Shown: positions 3-18,855 of the stretch, in pieces
How positions within the stretch are numbered: position 1 is the stretch's first letter
Layout of the letters: the number at the start of each line of letters is the position of its first letter
Virus record (IMG/VR): IMGVR_UViG_3300035703_003127
Span: 1 to 22,918 of that record
From: a virus
Direction: 5' to 3' (one strand)
Length of the DNA: 22,918 nt
The notes under the pieces: model-generated
What the model saw: only the letters and a program-made list of their open reading frames with translations
Databases searched by the model: none
Told to the model about the DNA's origin: nothing
Position numbers and translations under genes: made by a program

Positions 3-539
3 GGACACGCTCTCGAAGAACTGGCCATTCGTTGGCTGCGCATGGCCGGATTCGATCTGTACACCCAAAAGGCCAGCGGCGGTCAGTTCGGCTTTTCCGT
101 TGCAGGCGGCCGTATTCAAGGGCACGTAGATGGCGTCCTGAACGGCGGCCCCGCAGAGCTACGAATGAGCTATCCGGCCCTGTGGGAGTGCAAGACCATG
201 AACGACAAGTCCTGGCGGGATACGGTCAAGCACGGCGTCAGCAAATCCAAACCGGTCTATGCCGCGCAGATGGCCATCTATCAGGCCTACATGGAAGCCA
301 GCATCCCGGGCATTTCCGCGAACCCGGCGTTGTTTACCGCGATCAACAAGGACTCCGAGGAGATCTGGTTCGAGCTGGTGCCGTTCGATGGCGGCCTGGC
401 GCAGCGGATGTCCGATCGCGCGGTTCGTGTCATCACGGCGACTGACAGCCAGGAACTGTTGCCACGCCATGCGACTACACCGACGCATGTCGAGTGCAAG
501 TTCTGCCCCTGGCAGGACCGCTGTTGGGGTTCGACATGA
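3..539 (+). CDS. PD-(D/E)XK exonuclease, Cas4/RecB-like (5' end outside window)
   Basis: The frame is open from the first bases, so the N-terminus lies outside the window. The visible part reads GHALEEL at its start (the glutamate of the nuclease core), then GHVDGVL around 120-140 (metal-binding aspartate), then ECKT at 186-197 (the E-x-K pair). These form the PD-(D/E)XK active site. The C-terminus carries the cysteines of ECKFCPWQDRC, as in the iron-sulphur cluster of Cas4/AddB-type nucleases. An upstream cluster cysteine may lie in the missing part. Phage proteins of this type usually act as 5'-3' exonucleases in recombination or replication, which fits the helicase/primase and resolvase that follow. 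The stop overlaps the next start (ATGA at 536). The ATG at 42 is probably internal because conserved residues precede it. Confidence 0.85.
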   Translation, partial: GHALEELAIRWLRMAGFDLYTQKASGGQFGFSVAGGRIQGHVDGVLNGGPAELRMSYPALWECKTMNDKSWRDTVKHGVSKSKPVYAAQMAIYQAYMEASIPGISANPALFTAINKDSEEIWFELVPFDGGLAQRMSDRAVRVITATDSQELLPRHATTPTHVECKFCPWQDRCWGST

Positions 540-2725
540 TGGCCGACAACATCATCTGGCTCGACTTCAATGACGCCCCCGAGCAGCGCGACGAACTGCC
601 ATCCGATACCGATGCGCTGCGTGCGGGGCTACTGGACCGGCTCGAAGCCGTTCTCCACTACCTGTTTCCGCAGGGGCGCATCCGAGGTGGGAAGTTCTAC
701 GTCGGCGATGTCGATGGCAACCCTGGCAAGAGTCTGGTGGTTGAACTCGACGGACCACGGCGCGGCCTGTGGAAGGACTTCTCCACCGACGAGGGCGGCG
801 ATGTCATCGATCTGTGGGCGCGGTCGCAGGGTCGCTCCGCACGCAGCGACTTCCCGCGCATCGCTGGCGAGATCCGGCAGTGGCTCGGTCTTGCTCCACC
901 GAACATCACGCCGATGCGCCGCGATGTTCGCAGCGTGCCAATGGACGACCTCGGCGCTTACACCGCCAAGTGGGACTATCTGTCACCCGAGGGCGAACTG
1001 ATCGCATGCGTCTACCGCTACGACCCACCGACGGGCAAGGAATATCGCCCCTGGGATGTTCGTGCCCGCATGTGGCGCGCGCCCGACCCTAGGCCGCTCT
1101 ACAACCTCCCGGTCATCTCGAGGGCGCGAGAGGTCGTCCTGGTCGAAGGCGAGAAGTGTGCGGCTGCATTGATCGCTTGCGGTATTGCGGCCACCACCGC
1201 GATGAACGGCGCCAAGGCTCCTGTCGACAAAACCGACTGGCATCCGTTGGCGGGGAAATCCGTGGTCATCTGGCCGGACCGGGACGCACCCGGCTGGGAC
1301 TACGCCGAGAGCGCCGCGCGTGCTTGCGTGGCTGCGGGCAGCACATCCGTGGCCATCCTGGTGCCGCCCACCGACAAGCCAGCCAAGTGGGATGCCGCAG
1401 ACGCTGTCGACGAAGGGTTCGACTGCGCGGCATTCATCGCCCAGGGCGAACGTCGCGTGGTCAAGGCGGCGGCTGCCTCTCTGCCCACGTTCACGCTCGG
1501 TGAACTGCTCGACGATAACTCGCCGCTGCCACCCGATCTTATCTCGCCGCGCGTACTGACGCCCGCAGGCATGTTGGTGTTCGGCGGTGCGCCCAAGGTC
1601 GGCAAGAGTGACTTCCTGTTGTCGTGGCTGGCTCACATGGCGGCTGGCGCTGCATTTCTGGGCATGCATCCACCCCGTCCGCTACGGGTGTTCTACCTGC
1701 AGGCCGAGGTCCAGTACCACTACCTGCGCGAGCGTGTGAAGGATGTCCGCCTGCCGTCGCACCGGCTGCTGGACGCACGCACCAACTTCGTCGCCACACC
1801 ACAGTTGCGTCTGGTGCTGGACGACGCCGGTCTGGCGCAGGTGATCCCCGCGATCACGAACGCCTTCGGCGGTGAGCCACCGGACATCATCGCCATCGAT
1901 CCGATTCGCAACGTGTTCGACGGCGGCGATGCCGGTGGAGAGAACGACAACGGCGCCATGCTGTTCTTCCTCTCGCAGCGGGTGGAGCGGATTCGCCAGG
2001 CGGTCAATCCCGACGCCGGGGTGATCCTCGCCCACCACACCAAGAAGCTCGGCAAGAAGCAGTTCGAGGAGGACCCGTTCCAGGCACTAGCCGGCGCAGG
2101 AAGCCTGCGCGGTTACTACTCGACCGGAATGCTGCTGTTCCGACCCGATGAAACGCGCACTACTCGCCAGCTCATCTTCGAGCTGCGCAATGGCGCGGGT
2201 ATCCCGCAACGGCACGTCGACAAGATCAACGGTGAGTGGCGAGAAGTCGACGCCAACGAGCGGCTGGTGATGAAGGACTACGGCCAGCGCTTGGATGCCG
2301 AGCGCCGCCGCAAGCGCGACGCCATCCTACAAATCCTGTTCGACGAAGCCGGCAAGGGGCGCTGCTACACCGCCAATCAGTTTGCTGAAGGCTATGAGGG
2401 CAAAGCGGGGCTCGGTGGCGAGCGCACCATCCGCGAGCGGCTTTCCGCGCTCTCAACCCAAGGCTACATCAAGTATTTCCGTAACGCAGCTGATTACGGA
2501 CTGCCTGCTGCACGCACGAAGTTTGGGTACCTGTGCGTGGAGGGCATGGTGTTGCAAATGGCAATCGGACCCCCTGATTCACAGACCGGGGAAGTGTTGT
2601 TCGAGAGCAGAACGGTCCTCCCCACCCACTACAAATGCCCGCAGTCAGGGGCCGCAATGCCGGTCGAGAACCCCGAAGTGTGGGTTTACCAAGATGACAT
2701 CAACGACACCCAGGAGCCCTCATGA
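536..2725 (+). CDS. Toprim plus RepA-like AAA ATPase (phage primase-helicase)
   Basis: This is a 729-residue protein. Its N-terminal part resembles primase-associated domains. A Toprim-like fold is marked by VEGEK at about 203-207 and DRD at 248-250. The C-terminal half is a RecA/RepA-type ATPase with Walker A GGAPKVGKS at 350-358, a Walker B-like IIAIDP at about 451-456 and AHHTKK at about 499-504. A basic, probably winged-helix segment follows at about 590-650. Proteins of this kind unwind or prime phage DNA at replication. The start at 536 overlaps the nuclease stop as ATGA; an ATG at 539 is also possible. A farther upstream start would overlap conserved nuclease codons. The stop overlaps the resolvase start, so the three genes are translationally coupled. 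The family is clear, but whether the Toprim domain still primes is not known. Confidence 0.88.
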   Translation: MMADNIIWLDFNDAPEQRDELPSDTDALRAGLLDRLEAVLHYLFPQGRIRGGKFYVGDVDGNPGKSLVVELDGPRRGLWKDFSTDEGGDVIDLWARSQGRSARSDFPRIAGEIRQWLGLAPPNITPMRRDVRSVPMDDLGAYTAKWDYLSPEGELIACVYRYDPPTGKEYRPWDVRARMWRAPDPRPLYNLPVISRAREVVLVEGEKCAAALIACGIAATTAMNGAKAPVDKTDWHPLAGKSVVIWPDRDAPGWDYAESAARACVAAGSTSVAILVPPTDKPAKWDAADAVDEGFDCAAFIAQGERRVVKAAAASLPTFTLGELLDDNSPLPPDLISPRVLTPAGMLVFGGAPKVGKSDFLLSWLAHMAAGAAFLGMHPPRPLRVFYLQAEVQYHYLRERVKDVRLPSHRLLDARTNFVATPQLRLVLDDAGLAQVIPAITNAFGGEPPDIIAIDPIRNVFDGGDAGGENDNGAMLFFLSQRVERIRQAVNPDAGVILAHHTKKLGKKQFEEDPFQALAGAGSLRGYYSTGMLLFRPDETRTTRQLIFELRNGAGIPQRHVDKINGEWREVDANERLVMKDYGQRLDAERRRKRDAILQILFDEAGKGRCYTANQFAEGYEGKAGLGGERTIRERLSALSTQGYIKYFRNAADYGLPAARTKFGYLCVEGMVLQMAIGPPDSQTGEVLFESRTVLPTHYKCPQSGAAMPVENPEVWVYQDDINDTQEPS

Positions 2726-3507
2726 ACACGTATCGCCAAGTTGGCAAAACGTTTGCCAACTTCCCCCCATTTTTAACTGAAGTTGGCAAGTTGGCAGACG
2801 CCTGCCAACTTGAACTGCAATCACATCAACGAGTTACAGCGTTGTCGGCAGATTGGCAAATTGGCAGCGCTGCCAACTTGCCAACTGGCGCAAACCCGCA
2901 TGAATACTGGACTTTCGCCTATTCTGAAGTTGGCGAAAACTCCCCCTCCTACTACGTAGGAGAGGGACCAGAGGGTCCCTCTACCCTACGTGGAGGTTTT
3001 GCTCACCACTCGGACTGCGGGTGTCGCCCCCCATCCAAACCATCGGTCCTGGCACTGGACCTGGGATCTCAAACCGGATGGGCTGTGCGCGATCGCTCTG
3101 GTGTTGTGACCAGCGGATCGGAGTCCTTCAAGCCGCAACGCTTCGAGGGCGGCGGTATGCGCTACCTTCGGTTTAGGCGCTGGCTCACAGAAATCAAGCA
3201 GTGTTGCGATGGCATAGACGCCGTGTACTTCGAAGAAGTGCGACGCCATGCGGGCGTTGATGCGGCACACGCCTACGGTGGCTTCATGGCTCACCTGACG
3301 GCCTGGTGCGAACATCACCAAATTCCGTACCAGGGCATACCGGTGGGCACGATCAAGAAGCACGCCACAGGCAAAGGCAATGCCAGCAAAGAACAGATGA
3401 TCGTGGCGATCAAAGCGCGCGGCTTCGACCCGATCGACGACAACCATGCCGATGCGCTGGCACTGCTGGATTGGGCGATTTCGCAAGGGGGTGAGTCATG
3501 CGAATGA
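2722..3507 (+). CDS. RuvC-like Holliday junction resolvase with unusual N-terminal extension
   Basis: From residue about 109 the protein has an RNase H/RuvC fold: VLALDLGSQTGWA (D113), YFEEV (E171/E172) and a C-terminal DDNHADALAL (D240/D244), the expected acidic catalytic set. It would resolve branched DNA after replication or recombination. The ATG at 2722 overlaps the previous stop (ATGA) and has AGGAG at 2712-2716, so this start looks real. It adds about 107 residues that match no family known to me and are encoded by palindromic repeats (separate entry). Typical members start a few residues before the DLG motif. No in-frame ATG, GTG or TTG lies between the repeats and that motif. Either the extension is translated or a rare start codon is used. 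The catalytic domain is confident; the start is not. Confidence 0.8.
   Translation: MNTYRQVGKTFANFPPFLTEVGKLADACQLELQSHQRVTALSADWQIGSAANLPTGANPHEYWTFAYSEVGENSPSYYVGEGPEGPSTLRGGFAHHSDCGCRPPSKPSVLALDLGSQTGWAVRDRSGVVTSGSESFKPQRFEGGGMRYLRFRRWLTEIKQCCDGIDAVYFEEVRRHAGVDAAHAYGGFMAHLTAWCEHHQIPYQGIPVGTIKKHATGKGNASKEQMIVAIKARGFDPIDDNHADALALLDWAISQGGESCE
2738..2935 (+). repeat. Cluster of TTGGCA palindromes (iteron/operator-like)
   Basis: Nine exact TTGGCA/TGCCAA hexamers lie between 2741 and 2884. Six belong to the 9-mer AAGTTGGCA or its complement, at 2738, 2754, 2780, 2788, 2803 and 2871, and a near copy is at 2927. They pair into three palindromes. One has 11-bp arms at 2738-2748 and 2752-2762. One has 11-bp arms at 2787-2797 and 2802-2812. 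One is a 32-bp palindrome at 2853-2884 with one mismatch per arm and no spacer. By chance about 0.07 such hexamers would be expected here. The array lies just after a replication helicase gene, inside the 5' part of the resolvase frame. An origin iteron array or operator is inferred; the repeats themselves are directly visible. Confidence 0.85.
2954..2991 (+). other. Bulged hairpin inside resolvase 5' coding region
   Basis: ACGTAGG at 2954-2960 and AGAGGGACC at 2961-2969 pair with GGTCCCTCT at 2974-2982 and CCTACGT at 2985-2991. This leaves a 4-nt loop and a 2-nt bulge (2983-2984). The 16-bp stem is followed by GGAGG at 2992-2996, but no usable in-frame start codon follows it. It could be an RNA structure controlling the resolvase or part of the adjacent repeat-rich origin-like region. 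There is no U-tract, so it does not look like a simple terminator. Confidence 0.6.
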
Positions 3508-5364: not shown

Positions 5365-5910
5365 ATGGGACTATCCATCCGGGCCTATGCCCAACACCGT
5401 GGCGTGAGCCACACCGCTGTGGCCAAGGCCATCAAGGCCGGGCGCATCAGCAAAGAATCTGACGGCACCATTGACCCGACCAAGGCCGACACACAATGGG
5501 AGCGCAATACGCTGCCGTCGCAGAACCTGAACACCGACGCCGCGAAACCTGCGGCCAAGGTGGCAACCCCGGCGGTTTCCACCCCGGTTTCCAGTCGTGA
5601 GGCGCAAGCGCCCCTGGAAACCCGGGCCACCGCTCCCGACTACCAGACCAGCCGCGCCATTCGCGAGGCCTACGCCGCGCGTCTGGCCAAACTCGAATTC
5701 GAAGAACGCACGGGCAAGCTGCTCAACGCCGACGAGGTGAAGGTCAAGCACTTCAACCTCGCGCGGCTGCTGCGTGACCGCATCCAGCAAATCCCTCGCA
5801 AGCTCGCTCCCCAGATCGTGGCGGCGGTGGTCGCACAGCCCGACCAGCGCGTGGTGGAAGACCTGCTGGTGGACGCGATCCGCGAAGCCCTGGAGGAACT
5901 CTCCCGATGA
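5365..5910 (+). CDS. terS: Terminase small subunit, Nu1-like
   Basis: This 181-residue protein has an N-terminal helix-turn-helix (SIRAYAQHRGVSHTAVAKAI, about residues 4-23). A flexible Ala/Pro/Thr linker follows at about 50-95. The C-terminal half is helical and contains REAYAARLAKLEFEERTGKLL, typical of Nu1-like phage DNA-packaging proteins. It would bind the packaging site and recruit the large subunit. The start at 5365 has GGAGG at 5354-5358. The ATG at 5335 lacks a ribosome site and adds non-conserved residues. The stop overlaps the methyltransferase start. The usual partner, the large terminase, is 4 kb downstream instead of adjacent. Confidence 0.85.
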   Translation: MGLSIRAYAQHRGVSHTAVAKAIKAGRISKESDGTIDPTKADTQWERNTLPSQNLNTDAAKPAAKVATPAVSTPVSSREAQAPLETRATAPDYQTSRAIREAYAARLAKLEFEERTGKLLNADEVKVKHFNLARLLRDRIQQIPRKLAPQIVAAVVAQPDQRVVEDLLVDAIREALEELSR

Positions 5911-7331
5911 CCGTCACCCCCACCATGGCCAGCCGTATCGAGATGTGGCCACTGGATCGGCTCAAGCCCTACCAGAGAAATGCCCGTACCCACTCTGACG
6001 CCCAGGTGGCGCAAATTGCTGCCAGCATCGTCGAGTTCGGATTTACCGCCCCGCTGCTGGTGTCGGACGACGGCGGCATTCTTGCCGGCCACGGTCGCCT
6101 GGCCGCCGCAAAGAAGCTCAATCTGGACGCCGTGCCTGTGGTGGTGCTCGACCACCTGACACCCACCCAGAGACGCGCCTACATCCTGGCCGACAACCAG
6201 CTGGCCTTGCAGGCCGGCTGGGATCAGGAACTCCTTGCCGTCGAGTTGGCCGACCTGTCGGCGGCAGGCTTCGATCTGGCATTGACCGGATTCAGCGATG
6301 AGGAACTGGCCGACCTGCTTGGCGACATCGAAGAGGCCGAGCGTGCCGATGAGGATTCGCCCATTGGCGAACCCGTCGACGAGGACATTCCGGAGGCGCC
6401 AGTCACCCCGGTCAGCCAGCCGGGTGACATCTGGCAATTGGGTGTCCACCGCCTGATTTGCGGCGACTCGACCGACCCCGCCGTGGTCGCGGCGTTGATG
6501 GCCGGCGACACTGCTCGCCTGTGCTTCACCAGCCCACCCTACGGCCAGCAGCGTGACTACACGCAAGGCATCGCCGACTGGGATGCGCTGATGCGGGGCG
6601 TCTTCGCCAACTTGCCGATGGCCATGGATGGTCAGGTGCTGGTGAACCTGGGGCTGATCCACCGCGACAACGAGTTCATCCCGTACTGGGATGGCTGGCT
6701 CGCCTGGATGCGTACCAATGGCTGGCGGCGCTTTGGTTGGTACGTCTGGGACCAGGGACCGGGGATGCCGGGCGACTGGGCCGGGCGCCTGGCCCCCAGC
6801 TTCGAGTTCGTCTTCCACTTCAACCGCGCCAGCCGCAAACCGAACAAGATCGTGCCGTGCAAGCACGCCGGCCATGATTCACACCTGCGCGCAGACGGCA
6901 GTTCCACCGCGATGCGCGGCAAAGACGGCGAAGTCGGTGGCTGGACCCACGCTGGGCAACCCACCCAGGACTACCGCATCCCGGACAGCGTGATCCGCAT
7001 CATGCGCCACAAGGGCCGAATAGGCCGCGACATCGACCATCCGGCGGTGTTTCCGGTGGCGCTGCCTGAGCACATCTTGCTGGCGTACTCGGAACCGGGT
7101 GATGTCGTCTTCGAACCCTTTGGCGGCTCCGGCACCACGATCCTGGCCGCCCAGAAGACCGGACGCCAGGCCCGCGCCATCGAACTCGCCCCGTCCTATA
7201 CCGATGTGGCGGTCAAGCGCTTCCAACAGAACCACCCCGACGTCCCGGTGATGCTCATGGCCACCGGGAAGACCTTTGCCGAGGTCGAACACGAACGATT
7301 GGAGAACGCCGATGCAAGCCTGGCTCGCTGA
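5907..7331 (+). CDS. ParB-domain DNA methyltransferase (SPPY type, N4-cytosine-like)
   Basis: This 474-residue fusion has an N-terminal ParB/Srx-like domain at about 14-130, with LDRLKPYQRNARTH, EFGFTAPLLV and AGHGRLAAAKKL. The C-terminal beta-class methyltransferase has catalytic TSPPY at 208-212 preceding the AdoMet motif FEPFGGSGTT at 402-411. TSPPY is typical of N4-cytosine enzymes, though N6-adenine activity cannot be excluded. The start overlaps the small terminase stop as ATGA. Such fusions are common in phages, are probably orphan (no restriction partner seen), and may protect phage DNA. It overlaps a second, related enzyme by 20 bp. The segment between the two motifs (about 310-355) is long and glycine-rich. 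Confidence 0.9.
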   Translation: MTVTPTMASRIEMWPLDRLKPYQRNARTHSDAQVAQIAASIVEFGFTAPLLVSDDGGILAGHGRLAAAKKLNLDAVPVVVLDHLTPTQRRAYILADNQLALQAGWDQELLAVELADLSAAGFDLALTGFSDEELADLLGDIEEAERADEDSPIGEPVDEDIPEAPVTPVSQPGDIWQLGVHRLICGDSTDPAVVAALMAGDTARLCFTSPPYGQQRDYTQGIADWDALMRGVFANLPMAMDGQVLVNLGLIHRDNEFIPYWDGWLAWMRTNGWRRFGWYVWDQGPGMPGDWAGRLAPSFEFVFHFNRASRKPNKIVPCKHAGHDSHLRADGSSTAMRGKDGEVGGWTHAGQPTQDYRIPDSVIRIMRHKGRIGRDIDHPAVFPVALPEHILLAYSEPGDVVFEPFGGSGTTILAAQKTGRQARAIELAPSYTDVAVKRFQQNHPDVPVMLMATGKTFAEVEHERLENADASLAR

Positions 7332-8577
7332 CAAACTGGAGCACTGGCCCATCGAGCGCCTGTTGCCCTACATCCGAAATGCTCGAACCCACTCTGAAGA
7401 ACAGATTGCGCAGATCGCGGCGAGCATCGCTGAATTTGGGTTCACAGCGCCAATCCTGGCTGGGTCGGACGGCGTGATTGTCGCTGGTCATGGTCGTTTG
7501 GCAGCGGCGCGCAAGCTGGGGCTCGCTACTGTGCCGGTGGTGGTGCTGGAGCATCTCACCCCGACCCAGCGTCGGGCCCTGGTCATCGCGGACAACAAGA
7601 TTGCCGAGAACGCTGGGTGGGATGAGGAACTGTTGCGCCTGGAGCTGGCCGACCTGCAGGAGGCCAACTTCGATCTGGCACTCACCGGATTTGACGTCGA
7701 CGAGCTGCTGGAAATCATGGCAGGCGAGGAAACCACTACCGAGGGCCACACCGATGAGGATGCTGCGCCCGAGGTCCCGGTCATTCCGGTGTCCAAGGCG
7801 GGCGACGTCTGGATCTGCGGGCAGCACAGGCTGCTGTGTGGCGACAGCACTGAGGCCACGAGCTACGACACGCTGCTCGGCAACGATCGGGTGGCGATGA
7901 TCTTTCAAGACCCACCCTACAACGTGGACTATGCCAACACGGCGAAGGACAAACTGCGCGGCACCAACCGTCCGATCCTGAACGACAACCTCGGGGATGG
8001 ATTCCAGGAATTCTTGTTAGCGGCTTTCAAGCCGGCGCTGGCAAGGTGCGATGGCGCAGTCTACGTTGCGATGTCCTCGAGCGAACTCGACACCCTGCAG
8101 TCTGCCTTTCGCGCGGCTGGTGGCAAATGGTCGACCTTCATCATCTGGGCCAAGAACACTTTCACGCTCGGGCGCTCGGATTACCAGCGCCAGTACGAGC
8201 CGATCCTCTACGGTTGGCCAGAGGGCGCTAACCGTCACTGGTGTGGCGACCGCGACCAGGGGGATGTGTGGCACTTCAATAAGCCGCGCGTAAACGACTT
8301 GCACCCAACGATGAAACCGGTGGAGCTGGTCGAGCGGGCCATTCGCAACTCAAGTCGCCCGGGCGATGTAGTGCTCGACCCATTTGGCGGTTCAGGCACG
8401 ACGCTGATCGCGGCCGAGAAGTCAGGTCGTAAGGCACGGCTGATAGAGCTTGATCCCAAGTACGCCGATGTAATCGTGCGTCGCTGGCAGGATTGGACTG
8501 GACAGCAAGCCACCCGCGAGGCGGATGGTGTAGCCTTCGATCAGGCGGGGGAACTTTCTTCAGCGATCTCGCAGTGA
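7312..8577 (+). CDS. ParB-domain DNA methyltransferase (DPPY type, N6-adenine-like)
   Basis: This 421-residue protein is a paralogue of the preceding one. The ParB-like part is nearly the same (RNARTHSEEQIAQIAASI, EFGFTAP, VAGHGRLAAARKL). The catalytic motif is DPPY at 200-203, followed by LDPFGGSGTT at 355-364, again beta-class order. DPPY points to N6-adenine methylation, so the pair may have different targets. The start at 7312 has GGAG at 7301-7304. A TTG at 7276 is less likely. The last 37 bp overlap the end of the minus-strand gene at 8541-8906, tail to tail. Expression is probably coupled to the upstream enzyme through the overlap. Confidence 0.9.
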   Translation: MQAWLADKLEHWPIERLLPYIRNARTHSEEQIAQIAASIAEFGFTAPILAGSDGVIVAGHGRLAAARKLGLATVPVVVLEHLTPTQRRALVIADNKIAENAGWDEELLRLELADLQEANFDLALTGFDVDELLEIMAGEETTTEGHTDEDAAPEVPVIPVSKAGDVWICGQHRLLCGDSTEATSYDTLLGNDRVAMIFQDPPYNVDYANTAKDKLRGTNRPILNDNLGDGFQEFLLAAFKPALARCDGAVYVAMSSSELDTLQSAFRAAGGKWSTFIIWAKNTFTLGRSDYQRQYEPILYGWPEGANRHWCGDRDQGDVWHFNKPRVNDLHPTMKPVELVERAIRNSSRPGDVVLDPFGGSGTTLIAAEKSGRKARLIELDPKYADVIVRRWQDWTGQQATREADGVAFDQAGELSSAISQ

Positions 8578-9005: not shown

Positions 9006-9569
9006 TCAGGCAATGCGGTAGACCCGCCCGCCGCCTTGCGGCTTGTCCGACACGATGGTCAGGCCCAGCTTTTTCTTCAAGGCCCCGGCGAAGGTGCCGC
9101 GCACTGTGTGCGCCTGCCAACCGGTGGCAGCGCAGATCTGGCTGATGGTTGCGCCTTCGGGGCGTTGAAGCATCCGGATCACTTCAGCTTGCTTACTGTT
9201 CTCGCGGGTGCTGGGCTTGACCCATGTTGCTTCGGCGGCGGTCACGGCGGCTTCTAGCTCAGGATCGCTTATATCGGCTGGTACGCCTTCTGCGTTAGCG
9301 ATGATCTGGTCGAGCTTGGCTTCGAATTGACCGACGTCATTCTTGTTAATCCTCGGGCGTGGCATTCCTAGGGCATCGTAGCCCTCGGCGGCCACGAACC
9401 AGTCGGTGCCGTTGGTGGTGATCAAAGCGCGGTTCAACATCCCGTCGAGCACCTTTTTGCGCGCGCCGCCTTTGATGTTGTCAGGGAACCAGACGATCTT
9501 GCCACCGTTGTTTTCGATTGCGTAAGCCAGTATCGCGTGCTGGGAAGGTGTCAATTCGGTAGTGGTCAT
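9006..9569 (-). CDS. DUF3489 protein
   Basis: This is a 187-residue protein. The N-terminal half (LTPSQHAILAYAIENNGGKI, then a helix-rich part with FVAAEGYDALG) looks like a winged-helix-type domain. The C-terminal half holds the DUF3489 signature: SKQAEVIRMLQRPEGATISQ followed by ATGWQAHTVRGTFAGALKKK and a final GGGRVYRI. DUF3489 is predicted to be helix-turn-helix-like, so DNA binding is plausible but not shown. The ATG at 9569 has AAGGAG at 9575-9580. The gene lies in the middle of the minus-strand cassette and has leader copy 2 upstream. Its function in phage biology is not established. Confidence 0.85.
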   Translation of the reverse strand: MTTTELTPSQHAILAYAIENNGGKIVWFPDNIKGGARKKVLDGMLNRALITTNGTDWFVAAEGYDALGMPRPRINKNDVGQFEAKLDQIIANAEGVPADISDPELEAAVTAAEATWVKPSTRENSKQAEVIRMLQRPEGATISQICAATGWQAHTVRGTFAGALKKKLGLTIVSDKPQGGGRVYRIA

Positions 9570-18082: not shown

Positions 18083-18538
18083 TTATTTCTTCCAGTCGAC
18101 TTTTGAGCAAGCCAGCAACGCATCCCAATTATCGGGAGGATGGCCGGACTTGAGCATTTTCTGGAAGACCACGTAAGGGTCGGTCTTGGCGCCGGAAGAG
18201 CGCAAGGTGTGCTCGTCGTTCACCCAGGCGAAGATGATGATCTTGGTTTTGGAGTCAAAGCGGAAGAACAACCGAAAGCGCCTGCCGATCTTGGCTCGCC
18301 GCCAGTGGCGAAACGCAGGCCCCATGGTGTTGCCTTGTCGGTATTCGTCTCGGTTCGGGTCGCTCGGAACTACCTCTAGGATCAGCGTCGCAATGGCATC
18401 AAAAAGTTTGACGTTGGCGTTGGACTCAAAACCTGCTGGGTCTTGTGCCTCGGCACGCGACGCTGCCGCCTCCAGTTTCTGCAGCTGCTCTATGAGGCAT
18501 TCGTGGAAGAGCAGATTCCATCCGTGACGCTGAATCAC
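18083..18538 (-). CDS. yhaV: Toxin YhaV (type II toxin-antitoxin mRNA-interferase family)
   Basis: This 151-residue protein has GWNLLFHECLIEQLQKLEAA, then GPAFRHWRRAKIGRRFRLFF. The segment IIIFAWVNDEHTLRSSGAKT, followed by DPYVVFQKMLKSGHPPDNW, is a close match in order and spacing to Escherichia coli YhaV (154 residues). YhaV is a RelE-superfamily ribosome-dependent ribonuclease that inhibits growth unless bound by PrlF. The start is GTG at 18538, overlapping the prlF stop as GTGA, so toxin synthesis is coupled to antitoxin translation and the weak start may limit it. The pair lies antisense inside the phage tail operon. Confidence 0.93.
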   Translation of the reverse strand: MIQRHGWNLLFHECLIEQLQKLEAAASRAEAQDPAGFESNANVKLFDAIATLILEVVPSDPNRDEYRQGNTMGPAFRHWRRAKIGRRFRLFFRFDSKTKIIIFAWVNDEHTLRSSGAKTDPYVVFQKMLKSGHPPDNWDALLACSKVDWKK

Positions 18539-18855
18539 AGCGCCACGTCGCCTTGAATGTCCTCGTTCAGATCCACCCGTTTGCCAAGTCTGGCGAGCAT
18601 GGTGCGCGCCAGATCATCAGGCAGTGTTGTGATGTGTTGGCCGGACTGAATGTCTTTTTCGAGCAAAGCGAGGAAGCTGCCGATGGCTGGGTCTTCGTGA
18701 GGCTCGTCGATCACGCGGGTGACGATGACGCGGTCACCCGTGAAATCAAAGGCCACCTTGCCACCGGCATCCACGCCCAGAGCCTGACGGATCGGTTTGG
18801 GCAGGGTGATCTGCCCCTTTGATGTGATGGTGGCGACTTCGTGAATGGCGGGCAT
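18535..18855 (-). CDS. prlF: Antitoxin PrlF (AbrB/MazE-type)
   Basis: This 106-residue protein has an N-terminal swapped-hairpin AbrB domain: ATITSKGQITLPKPIRQALG, then VDAGGKVAFDF and RVIVTRV. The C-terminal part (SFLALLEKDIQSG) fits PrlF and should wrap the toxin. PrlF neutralises YhaV and, as a complex, represses its own promoter. The ATG at 18855 has a strong AGGAGG at 18861-18866 with 5-bp spacing, much better than the coupled GTG of the toxin, giving antitoxin excess. A palindromic operator lies just upstream. Confidence 0.92.
   Translation of the reverse strand: MPAIHEVATITSKGQITLPKPIRQALGVDAGGKVAFDFTGDRVIVTRVIDEPHEDPAIGSFLALLEKDIQSGQHITTLPDDLARTMLARLGKRVDLNEDIQGDVAL

Follow-up and report, generated by a model that had tools for sequence, protein, structure and literature searches.

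A candidate iteron-type replication origin, probably recognized by the phage's own primase-helicase, within coding DNA of a family of temperate phages

Plasmid RSF1010 (IncQ) has three separate replication proteins, RepA, RepB and RepC, with a RepA-type helicase, its own primase and an origin that contains repeats. A precedent is established for phage P4, whose primase-helicase, the alpha protein, recognizes origin repeats with a winged helix (PMC4234260). In phage lambda, the repeats bound by the initiator lie inside the translated gene O (PMC4488673, PMC7466680), and in pRN1 the replication protein ORF904 carries a C-terminal winged helix and the essential origin, which includes a stem-loop, is located just downstream of its own gene (PMC4234260). 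Here we analyze a dense array of 8-bp words in a viral sequence of 22,918 nucleotides (IMG/VR record IMGVR_UViG_3300035703_003127, positions 1 to 22,918; hereafter the window). The array is found between the stop codon of a predicted primase-helicase gene and the RuvC-like domain of a resolvase, and we consider it probable, on the basis of comparative sequence analysis, that it is an iteron-type replication origin which is recognized by the phage's own primase-helicase and overlaps coding DNA.

Each of these systems resembles the window only in part. Like P4 alpha, which binds origin repeats through its C-terminal winged helix and then unwinds and primes (PMC4234260), the window protein appears to combine primase, helicase and winged helix in one polypeptide; a winged helix is predicted, with a recognition helix that changes in step with the words. 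However, its helicase core is RepA-like (AAA_25) rather than of the P4/D5 type, and the array sits in the reading frame of the next gene. The lambda arrangement shares with the window an initiator-repeat array inside translated DNA, although the lambda repeats are within the initiator's own gene, whereas those of the window follow the primase-helicase stop, lie in the resolvase frame and encode a neutrally evolving peptide, and the predicted binder is itself the helicase-primase. The pRN1 replication protein also has a C-terminal winged helix, and its origin, with a stem-loop, is likewise placed just downstream of its gene, but it is an archaeal primase-polymerase with a superfamily 3 helicase and its origin has no iterons. 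The combination of a RepA-type helicase, an own primase and a repeat array is common to RSF1010 and the window, and gp5 of Wolbachia phage WO is annotated as 'similar to RepA of plasmid RSF1010'; in the window, however, primase, helicase and DNA-binding domain are found in a single protein.

A word array behind the primase-helicase gene

The features of the locus are as follows; the words were read from the sequence.

494..2725, plus strand: primase-helicase, 743 amino acids numbered from GTG 494 (AAA_25, E = 1.6e-20; phrog_239 DNA primase/helicase, E = 5e-69)
2420..2461, plus strand: predicted recognition helix of the C-terminal winged helix, residues 643-656 (AlphaFold2 model)
2420-2422, 2423-2425 and 2432-2434, plus strand: recognition-helix codons of E643, R644 and R647
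2722..3507, plus strand: RuvC-like resolvase frame, whose ATG overlaps the helicase stop (ATGA)
2739..2746, plus strand: word AGTTGGCA
2754..2761, minus strand: word AGTTGGCA
2781..2788, plus strand: word AGTTGGCA
2789..2796, plus strand: word AGTTGGCA
2803..2810, minus strand: word AGTTGGCA
2824..2836, plus strand: integration host factor (IHF)-like site CATCAACGAGTTA, one mismatch (first base) to the consensus WATCARNNNNTTR
2851..2858, plus strand: word GATTGGCA
2859..2866, plus strand: word AATTGGCA
2871..2878, minus strand: word AGTTGGCA
2879..2886, minus strand: word AGTTGGCA
2928..2935, plus strand: last, degenerate word AGTTGGCG, preceding the hairpins, a position relative to them that is common to most relatives
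2946..2962, unstranded: hairpin I CTCCTACTACGTAGGAG
2962..2981, unstranded: hairpin II GAGGGACC-AGAG-GGTCCCTC, directly abutting hairpin I, with compensating sequence in L040/L043

The primase-helicase contains a TOPRIM-like N-terminal part, the RepA-like AAA_25 helicase core and a C-terminal winged helix, and its true start is probably ATG 536, which overlaps the upstream stop. In the AlphaFold2 model of residues 576-743 (mean predicted local distance difference test score 85), the C-terminal domain forms a winged helix whose recognition helix begins at residue 643. A sequence search of solved structures with this domain returned just one weak, unrelated match, and fold comparison retrieved generic winged-helix proteins (MarR, Z-alpha and Fur types) with Z scores up to 7 and none of 8 or more; these matches fit the predicted fold and point to no specific relative. 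The resolvase matches phrog_159 (E = 6.8e-31) over residues 103-255, which represent its RuvC domain.

Nine exact TTGGCA/TGCCAA hexamers are present at 2741-2884 (144 bp), whereas the surrounding 500 bp, when shuffled with dinucleotides preserved, contain 0.46 on average and 4 at most; the whole window has 27 such hexamers compared with 14.2 expected. The array includes a 32-bp palindrome at 2853-2884 with a single mismatched pair, as well as perfect inverted arms of 17 nt (2781-2797/2870-2886). It is composed of two sub-arrays with words in mixed orientation, and the IHF-like site is located in the spacer between them. The sequence-only reading that drew attention to this locus had described the nine hexamers and their palindromes, their position directly after a RepA-like helicase/primase gene and their inclusion in a resolvase reading frame, all of which are borne out: the primase-helicase open reading frame (ORF) ends with a stop at 2723-2725, ahead of the first word, and the frame 2722-3507 is genuinely open and continues into the RuvC-like domain. 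The extent given there, 2738-2935, does contain the array but falls short of the whole architecture, which reaches the hairpin pair at 2946-2981. The first ~105 codons of the resolvase frame carry the array and hairpins, and the RuvC domain starts at ~3037. Since no in-frame ATG, GTG or TTG was found between 2722 and the RuvC domain, the array is translated if the resolvase is made.

To compare this region across relatives, primase-helicase homologs were collected from viral contigs, which are fragments, and from named bacterial genomes, with Ectothiorhodospira and Pseudomonas mendocina among the hosts. In nearly all of them the primase-helicase stop is directly followed by an 8-bp word that is repeated 6-14 times in mixed orientation, and this position is kept down to ~45-50% protein identity. 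The word varies by lineage, and AGTTGGCA, AGATTGCA, AGTTTGCA, AGATGGCA, AGATGGAA, AGTGGGCA, AGTCGGCA, AGTTGCTG, AGTTGCCA, AGAATCCA, AGAATGCA, AGAATTCA and AGTTTCCA were observed among others. A search of an open-access library for the words themselves retrieved no relevant paper. Over the initial 40 kb of each of seven relatives no second cluster of this kind occurs (6-9 hexamers per 250 bp in the array, 1-3 in the next-densest stretch), and scanning 17 whole records for the pattern led to the same conclusion, apart from a few isolated pairs elsewhere. The IHF consensus WATCARNNNNTTR occurs 13 times in 28 clusters, between the sub-arrays, compared with 0.6 in shuffles (~20-fold enrichment). 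A perfect stem of at least 6 with a loop of 3-5 bases is found in 26 of the 28 clusters versus 7.9% of shuffles, although a few of the 26 are themselves array palindromes. Two abutting hairpins follow the last word, and their shape is kept while their sequences are unrelated between lineages. In window 2946-2981 and in relatives, hairpin II can re-pair with an arm of hairpin I, making two exclusive folds possible.

In another group of loci (L063-L083), a related primase N-terminus (~55% identical) is fused to a P4-type helicase and occupies the same slot; these proteins match TIGR01613 or D5_N, neither of which is matched by the window protein with its AAA_25 core. AcaML1 (JX507079; L473 6296-6425) belongs to the same fusion class. 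Such loci have a different inverted-repeat array, of the CTGACGGGT or TGAAGGATTTGAAGG type, before RuvC, and the P4-type C-terminus may co-vary with its own array too.

Association between the word and the recognition helix

To identify residues associated with the word, ~719 alignment columns of the primase-helicase were compared with each word position, with weighting for relatedness and no column favored, although the pattern had been noticed by eye before the scan was made. The top-ranking column was residue 647 for word base 5 and residue 644 for base 6. Both, like residue 643, are located where the predicted recognition helix begins. Of 86 representatives, 45 combine R647 with G and 6 combine it with T, whereas N647 is paired with T in 24 and with G in none. 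A tree was then built with the C-terminal domain left out. On it, base 5 switches between G and another base ~15 times and residue 647 between R and another residue 16 times; 11 of these changes coincide on a branch, and among ~720 columns residue 647 has the highest branch overlap. Sister pairs such as L312/L323, L252/L248 and L190/L194 differ jointly in residue 647 and base 5.

Single mismatches within arrays are rarest at base 5 (4, versus 49 for base 3 and 80 for base 8). Despite this near uniformity, base 5 switches in all array copies between lineages. In some loci (e.g., L190, L199 and L225), base 3 varies freely (A/T) within one array and base 5 is near uniform.

The word and two enzyme residues change together across relatives, so a docking code may be readable from sequence. 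As part of the explanation that we consider probable, R647 would specify G at base 5 and R644 would specify G at base 6, and N647 goes with T at base 5. An arginine reading G and an asparagine reading A, the partner of T5, represent the usual chemistry of recognition helices. These data provide a strong inference that the winged helix of the primase-helicase is the binder of the words, a role for which the helicase/primase had earlier been named as a candidate. The resolvase was rejected as the co-varying binder, as its columns associate with the words far less (0.12 vs 0.33).

It is also conceivable that a different phage or host protein, such as a prophage repressor, binds the words and that the co-variation reflects shared ancestry. 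Linkage and phylogeny can produce such a correlation, given that the word and the helix are neighbors. Against this, no column of the whole protein outranks 647 or 644 in the scan, and both lie in the predicted recognition helix; there are ~15 switches with 11 coincident branches; sister pairs differ jointly in both; and the resolvase columns have no such association. We regard another binder as very unlikely.

Several copies that were not used to derive the code were then inspected. RepA of Wolbachia phage WOVitB is 33% identical, and its gene is followed by the words AGTTGGCA and AGATGGCA and an IHF-like site, AATCAATAGCTTA; its helix (LGSERSIRERI) has R at both code positions, as the code requires. 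In the WOVitB record (HQ906665; L472 5149-5345) the array and the IHF-like site come right after RepA, and no origin feature is annotated there. As predicted, G occupies base 5 in the copy on an Eleftheria megaplasmid (helix GGERTIRER, three copies of AGTTGGCT) and in a Shinella copy (helix GGKDTIRER, four copies of AGTTGGGA). In the plasmid collection, the sole near full-length match is on a megaplasmid.

Coding constraint, operator or origin

Because the array is inside a reading frame, the repeats could simply be protein-coding repeats of the resolvase N-terminus that are kept for the peptide. In favor of this, the frame is open in 107 of the 115 AGTTGGCA loci with a recognizable resolvase, and the frame starts at the ATGA overlap in 98 of 100 open-frame relatives. 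On the other hand, the hexamers occupy all three codon phases and both orientations, and therefore no repeated peptide accounts for them. Among the same 100 relatives, dN/dS (the ratio of nonsynonymous to synonymous substitution rates) is 0.98 over the array peptide (residues 7-55) versus 0.17 over the RuvC domain, and at 4-fold degenerate sites 2.5% of comparisons differ inside hexamers versus 17.6% outside. In L086, L095 and L222 the frame is closed and the resolvase has its own start codon, yet the array is intact. By these comparisons the array peptide evolves neutrally; the DNA is kept, as is the openness of the frame, and the peptide is not. Comparison of the repeats with the encoded residues across relatives, which had been proposed as a check, thus gave the opposite of the outcome that would have spoken against a DNA signal, as it is the hexamers that persist, while the encoded residues change. 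The peptide as the main constraint on the array is refuted by dN/dS and codon phase, and the coding explanation is almost certainly wrong.

Analysis of the sequences establishes DNA-level conservation, a conserved architecture and co-variation of word and recognition helix in addition to the neutral peptide. The earlier suggestion of binding sites for a replication initiator or a repressor, forming a phage origin or an operator in coding DNA, is strengthened by the co-variation. For an origin, 6-14 repeat copies are present in relatives beside the primase-helicase gene with which they co-vary and which presumably encodes their binder, and an IHF-type bending site in or beside the array is indicated by the enrichment across the family. 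An operator, by which the primase-helicase would control transcription of the replication/resolvase operon without any origin function, would agree with the fact that DNA-binding proteins bound beside their own gene often autoregulate, and the hairpins could terminate or attenuate transcription. The array is, however, downstream of the binder's gene and away from its promoter, 6-14 sites with an IHF-like site are more origin-like than operator-like, and no other initiator was recognized among ten ORFs classified from one relative. An origin rather than an operator is therefore the likely function in our view, and we consider pure operator function unlikely. A structured RNA, i.e., an attenuator or regulatory leader for the resolvase with the palindromes as RNA stems, might be suggested by hairpins I and II, which are conserved with unrelated sequences and may adopt mutually exclusive folds. 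Yet relatives differ in how many words they have and in how these are oriented and spaced, the words match a DNA-binding helix, and no Rfam match was found in the window. An RNA explanation of the array is highly improbable, although the hairpins, unlike the words, may have an RNA role.

Some observations weigh against the origin and its proposed code. The IHF match of the window has one mismatch, and the earlier expectation of a GC-skew change failed, as there is no consistent switch, and hence no origin signal from skew, at the array in the window or seven relatives. The 644/base-6 association is weaker than that of 647 and base 5, because it ranks first by mutual information and only fourth by branch overlap, with just 4-5 tree changes, 2 of them on the same branch. 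Exceptions to the code were found, i.e., helix GGKDTIRGRL with AGTTTGGA, GGQ(S/T)-IRDRL with AGATTTCG and Shinella L478. Word and helix could also be exchanged as one cassette, in which case the data show a matched pair and not stepwise co-evolution. Finally, a second Shinella copy has no clear array, the decayed WOVitA2 copy (L474) has none, and no small plasmid using the module as its sole replicon was recognized in the plasmid collection.

With these points considered, an iteron-type origin is still the explanation we hold to be probable. In the mechanism that we infer, from physical binding through helicase loading and priming to origin function, the C-terminal winged helix of the primase-helicase would bind the 8-bp words AGTTGGCA in both orientations, flanking an IHF-like bend. 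Many bound copies would load the RepA-type helicase ring, helped by DNA bending upon IHF binding. DNA synthesis would then be initiated by the fused primase, perhaps at the hairpins that follow the array. With its start coupled to the helicase stop (ATGA), the resolvase frame spans the array, which would explain why, in this lineage, the putative origin has ended up in translated DNA.

Other window genes and implications for the phage family

Additional genes in the window were also noted. At 5907-8577, two neighboring genes resemble fusions of ParB-N and an N6/N4 DNA methyltransferase (the first by profile search, the second by translation). A DUF3489 protein with a helix-turn-helix part is encoded at 9006-9569 on the minus strand and belongs to phrog_10315, a family of unknown function. 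Two overlapping small genes at 18083-18855, also on the minus strand, resemble a toxin-antitoxin pair of the YhaV/PrlF type.

Our analysis predicts an origin and its initiator for a large phage group that includes Wolbachia phage WO, whose origins appear undescribed (none was found in the open-access literature searched). It would also join lambda as a clear case of a putative origin inside a translated gene. Dozens of matched protein-DNA pairs are naturally available among the relatives, and their ~15 specificity switches make both the recognition code and the way in which every repeat copy changes together directly testable. More tentatively, and with slightly more doubt than belief, we propose that this widespread temperate-phage family, including phage WO, has an uncatalogued origin read by a two-residue code (644 for base 6 and 647 for base 5), in which the word of the whole array has switched in concert with the enzyme ~15 times on the tree. 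Such switches would yield many separate origin specificities, perhaps letting related prophages share a cell.
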